NCBI GenBank assembly: GCA_021604005.1 | Contig: BQIV01000026.1 | Coordinates: 1-64,000 of the forward strand | Reading direction: 5' to 3' | Origin: Nitrospirales bacterium | GTDB taxonomy: Bacteria > Nitrospirota > Nitrospiria > Nitrospirales > UBA8639 | Length of the DNA stretch: 64,000 nucleotides | The notes under the pieces: model-generated | The model's input: only the letters and a program-made list of their open reading frames with translations | Database searches by the model: none | Told to the model about the DNA's origin: nothing | Shown here: positions 12,068 through 15,576 of the stretch, in pieces | How positions within the stretch are numbered: position 1 is the stretch's first letter | How the letters are laid out: every line of letters starts with the position of its first letter | Position numbers and translations under genes: made by a program

Positions 12068-12250
12068 TATAGCCGTTTTAGTTATGCCGAATCAGTTACA
12101 CGTCAACCCACTGAATGCTGATTGACCCTTCGTTATTGAACCGTCAATCGTATGTAGATCATCCAGGCGGGCATAACTTTCCTCATGTTCACGTTGTACC
12201 CCGCGGAGTTCGTTGTATTTTCCCGTTTGGAACTTATTGGGATTCGCTAC
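12068..12250 (+). repeat. TATAGC-family interspersed repeat, copy A
   Basis: The longest copy of a repeat family found by eye in this window. It starts TATAGCCGTTTTAG and ends TTGGGATTCGCTACAA. The first part (about 110 bases, containing CTGAATGCTGATT and TTGAACCGTCAATCGT) matches copy C at 25927. The last 55 bases match copy B at 15483 in inverted orientation with about five mismatches. The 3' end of the element supplies the last few codons and stop of the minus-strand gene ending at 12234. Confidence 0.75.
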
Positions 12251-14237
12251 AATCCAGCAGAGTACGAGCGTCGAGATGGATGACGTGCCCGCCTCGTTCT
12301 TTTACTCGCTTGACCATGTCTTCCGTACCACCGGCATCGTCTCCGGCTTCGCCATTCCATAGCGCGAGTAAGGTCAGATTGTTTTGTGAGATCTCCAGCG
12401 CGTGATAGAGCATCCACAGATTCGAGCGTTGCCAGATATTGTAGTGCTTCTTGGCACGGAGCCATCGCGGCAGTTCGTTGGAATCGGATAACGTTTCGGT
12501 CGGTTGTGTCTGCACAAGCGCGTTGAACCGTTCAACCCATTGCGGTCCCGCGTCGGCAACTGACGCTTTGATGTACTCAGGTTTGGGAATGGCGAGGTAG
12601 ATCCGCGTTGGAATCTCTAATTCCCGACAGACTTCGTGGAATAGTATATCCCCACCCGAAGCCCCACCGGAAATGCCCAGGAGAGGGCCATGTCTTTTCT
12701 CTTGTTCTTGCAAGAGCGCGTGCTTGATCATGTCTCGGGCTTGCGTTTCTTTTTTAGGAGGAAAGCGAGGCTGTTCGCGTCCCTCGGCATCGATTCTGTG
12801 TCCGGTAAAGAGCAGCACGTACGGGGTTTCCGTTGTCGGTGTCATCGTCATGTGTCCTTCACTTGCCGTCGACAGGGCGGCTTCGGCATTGTCTCGATAG
12901 ATGCCGAGCCTATGGAACAGCTTGGCCTGCTTCAGTGCTGCGCTGCGTTCAAAGCCCTTCGCATCGGCAAACGCATCTTGATAGGCGCGGCGTACGCGGG
13001 TCGGTTTTGTAGAGTTCAAGAATGTCCAGTCGGCATATCCGATCTCCGCCCAGATGTCTTTCCCGTTTTCACGAGTGCAGGCTATCCGTCTTGATTCGAC
13101 GGCCAGTTTGACGCCCGCGTTCAGCTCGGTTTGAAGCGCGTGAAACTTCTTGAGTTTAAGCACTGCTTCCTCTTCCGTGTCAAATCCGTCTTCCCACGTC
13201 GCCGGCTGCAAAGCGGCGAGTTCGAGAATCACGGTCAACGTCGCGAGGGCATTAAGCCCGGAGTAGAAATGGTTGCGGTCTTCGATGAATCCTTGGTTGT
13301 AATACTCGAAGGACTGCTGGAGATGGGAAGAAGCCAAGGCGGTTTGCTGAATGACTTGGGTATCGTCTTGCCCCTGCCAATCCTGTTCCCAGCGCGTTTT
13401 GGCGTTTCTTCCCATGAGTGCCAAAATTTCCGCTCGGTCGTGGCGTTTCAGCTTGTCGTGTTCAAGTGTTCGCTTCAAGGCTTGATCCGATCGGACAAGA
13501 TCCCCCTGTCGTTGATAGACGGTTCCCAGCATTGTATTGGCCTTGAGGTCCATCGCATCATACGTTCTGATCGTTTCCCACGTTCTTTGCGATCCCGGCC
13601 AGTCGGAGAGTGAGCGTTGCGTATTTCCGATGAAGCGTAGTCCCATGGTTTTCCAGGAAAATCCTTCGGTTTCAGCCGATAAGAGCTGAAGCTTCGCACG
13701 GTTGCACGTGGCTTCAGCCTGTTCGACTTCCTCACGAAACTCAAGCGGAACGATGAGAAACGTAGTCGGGTCGGTGGCGGTCAGGCCCGGTAACAGTTGA
13801 AACACCGGACTGTCCGGTTTCTGGAGATCCCATGTTGTTTGAATTCGCTGTACGAGCTCAGGTATGTGGGCGGCGGGGTTGAGCGCATCGTAGGACATGT
13901 ACCGGTCGGTTTTCAAGTCAAACGGGACCTCATCGACTTCATGGGCCTCATATCGTTCGGCTCGAATCAGAAAGGTCCGTTTGTCACGAAACGCATGGCG
14001 AATGCCCAACTCGTAAAATGCATTGGCATTATGGATGCTGATATCGGCGATTACAAAGTCGGCGATGAGCAATTGCTCGAACATGTCGGCGCGGATGTTG
14101 CCCTGCGCAATTATTTCTCCCGTCGTACCGCCTGAAAATCCCGCTTTGTCCAGAGCGGGACGAATCAGTTCGCGATCGACGCGGTCGAAGTGAATGCCGT
14201 TCTTTGTGCCGAACGGCCTGACGATGAAGGCATGCAT
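12234..14237 (-). CDS. TIR-like / TPR (DUF4071-like) / SLOG-like sensor protein
   Basis: A 667-residue multidomain protein. Residues 1-125 form a flavodoxin-like domain related to TIR-like/nucleoside-deoxyribosyltransferase proteins, with FVIADIS and HNANAFYELG (69-78, E76 the candidate catalytic acid). Residues about 160-460 are helical with TPR-like units and the GLNALATL region typical of bacterial DUF4071 (TRAFs-binding) proteins. Residues 468-667 resemble a SLOG/DprA-like Rossmann domain with FTGHR (477-481) and the glycine-rich SGGASGGD (523-530), a nucleotide-binding signature. The ATG lies 9 bases after the patatin stop, implying coupled translation. I infer a sensor or NAD/nucleotide-processing role regulating the patatin. 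The last codons lie in a repeat element. Domain names are from motif memory; no search was run. Confidence 0.75.
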   Translation of the reverse strand: MHAFIVRPFGTKNGIHFDRVDRELIRPALDKAGFSGGTTGEIIAQGNIRADMFEQLLIADFVIADISIHNANAFYELGIRHAFRDKRTFLIRAERYEAHEVDEVPFDLKTDRYMSYDALNPAAHIPELVQRIQTTWDLQKPDSPVFQLLPGLTATDPTTFLIVPLEFREEVEQAEATCNRAKLQLLSAETEGFSWKTMGLRFIGNTQRSLSDWPGSQRTWETIRTYDAMDLKANTMLGTVYQRQGDLVRSDQALKRTLEHDKLKRHDRAEILALMGRNAKTRWEQDWQGQDDTQVIQQTALASSHLQQSFEYYNQGFIEDRNHFYSGLNALATLTVILELAALQPATWEDGFDTEEEAVLKLKKFHALQTELNAGVKLAVESRRIACTRENGKDIWAEIGYADWTFLNSTKPTRVRRAYQDAFADAKGFERSAALKQAKLFHRLGIYRDNAEAALSTASEGHMTMTPTTETPYVLLFTGHRIDAEGREQPRFPPKKETQARDMIKHALLQEQEKRHGPLLGISGGASGGDILFHEVCRELEIPTRIYLAIPKPEYIKASVADAGPQWVERFNALVQTQPTETLSDSNELPRWLRAKKHYNIWQRSNLWMLYHALEISQNNLTLLALWNGEAGDDAGGTEDMVKRVKERGGHVIHLDARTLLDCSESQ

Positions 14238-14246
14238 TGTTGCCCG

Positions 14247-15413
14247 TTAGATGAATGTCCCGAAATGCTCGATGGCAATCTCCTCGCCAACCTTCTTTCC
14301 GATGCGTCGAAGATCGGGTATGAATTCGACGGAATCCAGTTTCTGAACATTCTTAGGCTGAATGTCAGAAAATCCCAACGCGTCGAGCCCTGCACGGCTG
14401 AGTTTCGCATTGTATCGGGCATAGAGGAAGCGGCGGCCTTGATTGTTCGTTAATGGGATGGCCGTTCCTCCCGCATCGCGTGGCACCATATCGCCCAGTT
14501 CACGATCGATTGTCGTGCCGTACACACAGCGGCCCACCAATCGGCAATTCGTGTCTTGATCGACCATGGCCCCGTACATGAGTGCTCCGGGAATCCCCGA
14601 CACGTTGGTAATGAGCCCGTGATCGGGGTCGTCCACGTCTTCATCTTCCGTCGCTGCGGCGCCCGTTCCGACGGACATGATTAGCAGTTTGTCTTCACCC
14701 GAAGCCCAATTGAGTCGATAGCCCGGTTCGGTCGCCATTCGATACATGAGAAAGGCGGGATTGTTATAGGGAGTCATTCCGCCATCCACGAAGACAAAGG
14801 ACTTGCTCTCGTCGTTCGGATCCCATTGAATGACTTCCGGAGGAAAATAGATCGGGGCGGCCGTGCTCGCCCGAACAATTTGCCATAGCGGAATATCCAG
14901 ATTGCAATCAGGGCGAGATGGGTCATTATACTTGGCTTGCGGGTTGCTGCTCATGGGCCAGGGAGAGTCCGTCGTCCGGTTTCGCGTGACGGCGAGAAAC
15001 AAGCATTCGAGGTCATCCGGTTTCAACGTGGTCTTTTCTCCAAACGTCTTTTGCAATAAACCTTTCAGGGGGTCCGCTTTGTACAGGGCTTTCCAGCGTT
15101 TTAAAAGAAACTGCTTTTCAAACATGGCTGGTCCGGTTTCCTCATAAAACGTGAGCAGCTCTGCGACTGACATGCCTCTGGCTAATCCGGCGGCGATAAT
15201 CGCTCCCGTGCTGGTTCCTCCGATGTAATCGAAGAAATGACAGAGCCTGTACTCGGGGCCAGCGTCTTTGGCTTGCGCGAGCATCTGTTCCATTCTGGCG
15301 AGAATTTCCAGCGTGAGAATGCCACGGATGCCTCCACCGTCGAGGGCTAACATTTTATGTTGCTGATCTTCCTTGCCTTCATACCGGGACGCAAGTGTTC
15401 CCCAGATTGTCAT
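14247..15413 (-). CDS. Patatin-like phospholipase
   Basis: Serine-aspartate dyad lipid acyl hydrolase of 388 residues. The oxyanion-hole motif DGGGIRG is at 25-31, the nucleophile S68 sits in GTSTG, and the catalytic aspartate is D210 in VDGGM. There is no signal peptide, so it acts from the cytoplasm on membrane lipids. The start is ATG 15413, preceded by GAGGAGG; a longer reading frame upstream begins inside repeat copy B and is not used. It is followed after 9 bases by the TIR-like/SLOG-like gene. Cytoplasmic patatins next to nucleotide-sensing proteins are effectors in known antiphage systems such as CBASS (CapV). That role here is inference from motif and context. Confidence 0.9.
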   Translation of the reverse strand: MTIWGTLASRYEGKEDQQHKMLALDGGGIRGILTLEILARMEQMLAQAKDAGPEYRLCHFFDYIGGTSTGAIIAAGLARGMSVAELLTFYEETGPAMFEKQFLLKRWKALYKADPLKGLLQKTFGEKTTLKPDDLECLFLAVTRNRTTDSPWPMSSNPQAKYNDPSRPDCNLDIPLWQIVRASTAAPIYFPPEVIQWDPNDESKSFVFVDGGMTPYNNPAFLMYRMATEPGYRLNWASGEDKLLIMSVGTGAAATEDEDVDDPDHGLITNVSGIPGALMYGAMVDQDTNCRLVGRCVYGTTIDRELGDMVPRDAGGTAIPLTNNQGRRFLYARYNAKLSRAGLDALGFSDIQPKNVQKLDSVEFIPDLRRIGKKVGEEIAIEHFGTFI

Positions 15414-15482
15414 GGCGACCTCCTCATGATGAAATATGATAAGAAGCGCAGGCCCATGGATAAAGCCATTATTTAAAAGGAT

Positions 15483-15576
15483 TATAGCGAATCCCAATAT
15501 GTTCCAAACGGAAAAATACAATGAACTCCGCGCGGTTCAACATTTCAACCAGCGGAAGTTATTTGAAACGGCCATA
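15483..15576 (-). repeat. TATAGC-family interspersed repeat, copy B
   Basis: Inverted copy lying upstream of the patatin gene. Read on the minus strand it begins TATGGCCGTTTCAAATAAC and ends CATATTGGGATTCGCTATAA. It is about the same length as copy D (36712), which matches it over both ends and the CGCGCGG core. The 55 bases at its 3' end match the end of copy A, so copies A and B bracket the patatin/sensor pair as inverted repeats. Confidence 0.75.

Follow-up and report, generated by a model that had tools for sequence, protein, structure and literature searches.

Gene Organization of the Locus

The window analyzed here is a stretch of DNA of 64,000 nucleotides that includes a four-gene island on the minus strand, encoding a Tle1-like hydrolase, a TIR protein, a patatin-like phospholipase, and a three-domain protein designated P0001. 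The flanks are presumably housekeeping: a transketolase gene and a transaldolase/phosphoglucose-isomerase-like fusion on one side and a pyridine-nucleotide-transhydrogenase-like gene on the other. The features considered are as follows.

16920 to about 19265, minus strand: Tle1-like hydrolase with hydrophobic segments (Pfam), upstream of the TIR gene
15746 to about 16900, minus strand: CAP12/Pycsar-type TIR protein (Pfam) with an uncharacterised N-terminal region of about 230 aa, upstream of the patatin gene
15479 to 15541, minus strand: 63-nt dispersed repeat, upstream copy of inverted pair I1, with a TATAAT reading toward the patatin gene (possible promoter)
14247 to 15413, minus strand: patatin-like phospholipase, 388 aa, proposed effector (Pfam Patatin, E 4.7e-29)
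12234 to 14237, minus strand: P0001, DrHyd/TIR-like, TPR-S, and SLOG protein, 667 aa (ORF and translation, Pfam TPR-S, domain models)
13827 to 14237, minus strand: N-terminal domain of P0001, residues 1 to about 137, predicted nucleoside/nucleotide N-glycosidase (DrHyd/TIR) fold with candidate catalytic Glu76 in Y75-E76-L77-G78 (AlphaFold model, structure and profile matches)
13242 to 13586, minus strand: TPR-S sensor repeats of P0001, residues 218 to 332 (PF20308, E 2.7e-12, 47.6 bits against a cut-off of 27.6)
12237 to 12833, minus strand: predicted SLOG domain of P0001, residues about 469 to 667, with FTGHR and SGGASGGD (AlphaFold model and structure matches)
12193 to 12255, plus strand: 63-nt dispersed repeat, downstream copy of pair I1, inverted and overlapping the last P0001 codons

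The P0001 reading frame is intact as a single gene, on a strand that the initial annotation did not give. The spacing described there is correct: nine bases (cgggcaaca) lie between the patatin stop codon at 14247-14249 and the P0001 ATG at 14235-14237. The patatin gene starts at the ATG at 15413, preceded by AGGAGG. Relatives of P0001 can be aligned end to end at 26-48% identity in several phyla, and because this conservation covers the whole length, a chance ORF is ruled out for both the gene and its architecture.

The two copies of the 63-nt repeat bracket the patatin and P0001 genes as an inverted pair that is 90% complementary. Cassette-specific ends are ruled out by the presence of at least 40 matches to the repeat in the genome; around both genes at L031, L032, L035, and L036 no comparable flanking pair was found, and folding of the repeat as a DNA hairpin did not go beyond chance. 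TATAAT is present in most of the copies shown, including the one upstream of the patatin gene, but use of this copy as the patatin promoter is proposed only tentatively because a promoter scan scored near chance level. Among the copies, the adjoining left flank is of two recurring kinds.

The patatin-P0001 pair lies in a variable interval, since two congeneric genomes have no such pair at the corresponding position. One of these keeps the Tle1-like gene (81%) and has a large, different, membrane-bound patatin-like gene in place of the TIR gene; the other has neither the Tle1-like nor the membrane patatin-like gene at this interval.

Domain Architecture of P0001

TPR-S is the only domain that Pfam finds in P0001; it scores above the curated cut-off and accounts for the helical repeat middle recognized in the initial annotation. 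To resolve the ends of the protein, relatives were gathered, the N- and C-terminal ends were aligned separately (alignment A1 with 40 sequences and alignment A2 with 32, respectively), and the structure of each was predicted. The three-domain arrangement proposed from motifs is borne out: the gene is intact, the motifs are present, and structure prediction resolves the domains.

The model of the N-terminal domain (pLDDT 85) is nearest to DNPH1 (Z 12.5, rmsd 2.8, 125 residues), followed by MilB (Z 12.0), deoxyribosyltransferases (NDT; Z 11.4), and TIR domains of plants and bacteria (Z 10.4, for the RUN1 TIR). The A1 profile also reaches DNPH1 by sequence (E 1.5e-4), aligning the YELG of DNPH1 with Y75-G78 of P0001. 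E76 is conserved at 90% or more across the 40 diverged sequences of A1, and one relative, L051, has threonine in place of the catalytic glutamate. The window domain has no Pfam match; TIR_2 is matched by 11 of 40 relatives, at best with an E value of only 0.026, and PADLOC 2023 returns only weak TIR matches for P0001, among them a weak match to a CBASS TIR effector. The earlier description of this end as TIR-like/deoxyribosyltransferase-like is right as to the TIR/DrHyd class, but the nearest structures are DNPH1, MilB, and deoxyribosyltransferases rather than a canonical TIR, and as modeled the domain is closer to DrHyd. P0001 has the fold and the YELG glutamate in common with the nucleotide N-glycosidases DNPH1 (RCL) and MilB, but is only 10-17% identical to them and differs in the fusion of the domain to TPR-S and SLOG.

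The C-terminal domain, by its predicted structure, belongs to the SLOG superfamily even though it has no Pfam model. This assignment follows from the model (pLDDT 88), which is nearest to YpsA (Z 16.7, rmsd 3.6, 160 residues) and then to DprA (Z 12.0), ShosA (11.2), the TRPM2 SLOG (9.4), LOG (8.9), and the ThsA SLOG (6.8); a molybdenum-cofactor carrier protein is also among the matches. FTGHR and SGGASGGD, the motifs from which a glycine-rich Rossmann/SLOG domain was originally suspected, fall in the most conserved columns of A2 (G20/H21 and G66-D71; 32 relatives). The outcome named in the initial annotation as refuting the assignment, a predicted C-terminal structure unlike SLOG or Rossmann folds, did not arise. 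A Pfam scan of the domain found no family, and the best Pfam sign was YAcAr at E 0.07 in two members; a profile of the SLOG alignment gave no meaningful match to PDB sequences, and only structure comparison placed the domain. The fold is therefore like that of the YpsA, DprA, and TRPM SLOG domains, but the sequence is too distant for any Pfam model.

Linkage to the Patatin Gene

The window patatin retains intact GGGIRG, GTSTG, and DGG motifs; GTSTG and DGG are intact in 17 of 17 paired patatins, and GGGIRG nearly so. Its relationship to the phospholipases of CBASS is evident from a PADLOC match to the CBASS phospholipase effector (E 3.9e-43), and its score against NCBIfam CBASS_lipase is 118.9 bits, under the cut-off of 200.

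Twenty-seven genomes with a full-length P0001-type protein were sampled for patatins, a strong match being defined as E <1e-40. Sixteen of them have one, in each case as a single strong copy and usually as the sole such patatin in the genome. In 15 of the 16, the distance to the full-length gene is at most 8.3 kb; the remaining patatin is 2.7 kb away from a SLOG gene that stands alone. In genomes of 3-6 Mb this linkage is far beyond chance, and its recurrence across phyla backs the proposal, made at first from adjacency in the window, that the patatin is the output. The distance is less than 100 bases in six of the 15 (G000, G296, G297, G259, G300, and G301), and the two genes directly adjoin each other in Verrucomicrobiota, Acidobacteriota, and Cyanobacteria as well as in the window; some other patatins are 4-8 kb away with other genes between. 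Split modules also keep a patatin, whether they consist of DrHyd-TPR-S without SLOG (L035 and L036) or of SLOG alone (L065 and L066).

Both window genes are closer to the Verrucomicrobiota/Acidobacteriota pairs (44-48% and 55-58%) than to pairs from their own phylum (about 31% and 43-49%), which suggests, at the level of sequence, that the patatin and P0001 genes moved together across phyla. A mirror-tree correlation between the two families (r 0.78, permutation p 0.001) serves as support only, since shared phylogeny confounds it.

Distribution and Exchange of Parts

Among 296 genomes sampled in the phylum of the window, 48 have full or partial matches to P0001. The protein is full-length in about 19 of these, a figure that includes cases divided in two by the search or by the end of a contig. 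Five phylum-level groups have full-length relatives, which outside the phylum come from cyanobacteria, one Spartobacteria MAG, one Acidobacteria MAG, and a genome of the alphaproteobacterial class. Plasmid records yielded partial relatives only, with coverage of at most 52%. The combination of domains was initially regarded as unusual, a view that is not borne out in that form: over 20 genomes from several phyla encode the same three-part protein, and other proteins have TPR-S-SLOG with a cyclase replacing DrHyd. The parts exist separately as well: Synechococcus, Cyanobium, and Hyphomicrobiales have DrHyd-TPR-S proteins of about 460 aa, and there are SLOG proteins of about 205 aa that stand alone.

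The output varies among the fetched loci. A caspase-like protease is encoded within 5 kb at four full-length loci that have no patatin (L052, L053, L054, and L056), and a patatin or caspase gene is nearby at five of five loci with DrHyd-TPR-S only; in the tabulation of these loci, L041, L042, and L045 have no recognisable output gene nearby. In a cyanobacterium (L148:7411-10722), SLATT_1 is placed ahead of DrHyd-TPR-S-SLOG in one fusion of 1103 aa, and a search of this genome for the window's patatin family gave no match. A small ORF of about 187 aa, with a W/Y-rich and likely membrane segment, is directly upstream of a full-length or SLOG-only gene at L051:7869-8429, L053:10791-11357, L056:10898-11461, and L066:6426-6986, and could be a further component.

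These exchanges bear on whether P0001 is itself a toxic effector, depleting NAD+ or nucleotides through a DrHyd domain gated by SLOG, with the patatin as a second effector in parallel. Some conflict systems are described as having DrHyd members for NADase effectors (PMC9503650), and P0001 has a weak PADLOC match to a CBASS TIR effector. The genes travel together, however, and the patatin is swapped while DrHyd-TPR-S-SLOG stays, a pattern more to be expected of a regulator whose outputs can be exchanged than of two toxins acting independently; we consider a toxic P0001 unlikely.

The enzyme is exchanged as well. A large set of proteins has the order TPR-S-SLOG-Guanylate_cyc, one with a RyR domain, in several phyla (L083, L088, L090, L095, L098, L105, L109, and L117), and some of these loci have TIR or STAND genes alongside; at L065, the neighbours of a TIR_2-TPR-S gene encode a SLOG on its own, a caspase, and a patatin. 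Because both the outputs (patatin, caspase, SLATT) and the enzymes (DrHyd, TIR, cyclase) are swapped, TPR-S-SLOG looks, from these sequences, like a constant sensing core with a changeable enzyme and output.

P0001 could alternatively be a sensor only. Its DrHyd and SLOG domains would then bind ligands or regulate, and the protein would relay to the patatin a signal that is produced by other parts of the cell or that is a nucleotide or nucleic acid of phage origin. Such a role would suit the presence of DprA, which binds DNA, and ShosA among the structural neighbours of SLOG, and the lack of a catalytic glutamate in L051. It is at odds with the conservation of E76 in nearly all of the diverged sequences and with the fact that the partner domain in the other TPR-S-SLOG proteins is a cyclase, which is an enzyme family; on balance a role limited to sensing appears rather improbable, though less so than direct toxicity.

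The least probable of the readings considered is regulation of lipid turnover as a metabolic or housekeeping function, with no role in conflict. DNPH1, MilB, LOG, and YpsA relatives do include ordinary nucleotide enzymes, but a housekeeping function is hard to reconcile with the patchy spread in the phylum (partial matches included), the lack of the pair at the corresponding position in two genomes of the genus, joint transfer across phyla, and caspase, TIR, STAND, and SLATT neighbours, and we regard it as highly unlikely.

Proposed Mechanism

The reading that we favour, and judge probable though well short of certain, is that the patatin and P0001 genes together make up a nucleotide-signal conflict module, which most likely brings about cell suicide or growth arrest when triggered by phage. 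Counted against it are the Glu-to-Thr change in L051, the loci with no recognisable output gene, the patatins at 4-8 kb, and the weakness of the PADLOC TIR matches. DrHyd, TIR, and SLOG folds are also used in ordinary nucleotide metabolism, which likewise weighs against a conflict module.

In this module, TPR-S would sense the trigger. The DrHyd domain, to judge from its fold and glutamate, would then cleave the N-glycosidic bond of a nucleotide or NAD-like substrate, and SLOG, by its fold, would bind a nucleotide-derived ligand, possibly the DrHyd product. Liganded P0001, or the ligand itself, would switch on the patatin, which, as its enzyme family and intact catalytic motifs suggest, would degrade membrane phospholipids. 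Relatives could instead have a caspase-like protease as output, or a SLATT membrane domain fused to the protein, and a TIR or nucleotide cyclase as enzyme.

TIR, DrHyd, and SLOG have been grouped as one class of domains that process or sense NAD/ADPr, with cADPR sensors among the YpsA-like SLOGs (PMC9503650), and this class makes, processes, or senses NAD/ADPr-type nucleotides (PMC7159879). In Thoeris, the TIR product binds SLOG and the effector is released; the ThsA SLOG binds 3'cADPR (PMC11204291). P0001 might plausibly make and sense its own signal, as source and sensor in one chain, as had been suggested at the outset. More speculatively, and with the balance tilted against it, one polypeptide might make the nucleotide signal with DrHyd and read it with its own SLOG, so that a separate patatin would be switched in a self-amplifying or threshold manner, this being one form of a constant TPR-S-SLOG core with interchangeable signal makers (DrHyd, TIR, cyclase) and executioners (patatin, caspase, SLATT). 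Whether SLOG reads the DrHyd product within the same protein is the question raised, and the swaps in relatives are natural controls for it.

Comparison with Known Systems

Thoeris (ThsB TIR with ThsA SIR2-SLOG) likewise links a TIR/DrHyd-class enzyme with SLOG and a signal-gated effector, but in the window one polypeptide carries both the enzyme and SLOG, a patatin encoded separately takes the place of SIR2 as effector, and TPR-S is added. Pfam detected neither SIR2 nor a macro domain in any of the four proteins of the island; the unit has no ThsA-type SIR2 or TM-macro, and membership in Thoeris is ruled out on this basis.

CBASS with the CapV phospholipase is the nearest comparison for the patatin. 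Membership in CBASS is ruled out by the lack of a CD-NTase in the unit (Pfam finds none among the four island proteins) and by the CBASS_lipase score below cut-off. The genome's only SMODS match is on another contig, C1, with neighbours of its own. That region (L165, C1:248000-262000) has the appearance of a CBASS-like operon, with a SMODS CD-NTase, an AAA ATPase, and a SAVED-like protein, the names beyond SMODS being assigned by eye.

The same classes of domain (DrHyd, SLOG, TPR-S, caspase, SLATT, and STAND) are combined in the TIR-DrHyd-SLOG (TDS) nucleotide-centred conflict network of Burroughs and Aravind; these authors and colleagues reportedly predicted nucleotide-signalled conflict systems from such domains in 2015 (in NAR). 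The literature searched, whose scope did not extend to that founding study, yielded no description of a patatin-paired DrHyd-TPR-S-SLOG protein and nothing relevant on TPR-S. The kind of system is already known. The patatin-paired three-part form is taken as a new version of it, since it lacks the components that define Thoeris and CBASS and its PADLOC TIR matches are weak.

The unit is best seen as a nucleotide-signal conflict system, probably anti-phage, whose enzyme and effector can be exchanged; it probably works like Thoeris or CBASS while being a member of neither, and seems related, as a form not yet catalogued, to the immune systems of bacteria that use nucleotide signals. If this is correct, it would define a SLOG family that has no Pfam model and an uncatalogued patatin-, caspase-, or pore-linked branch of nucleotide-signalled bacterial immunity, in which generator and receptor are joined in one chain.
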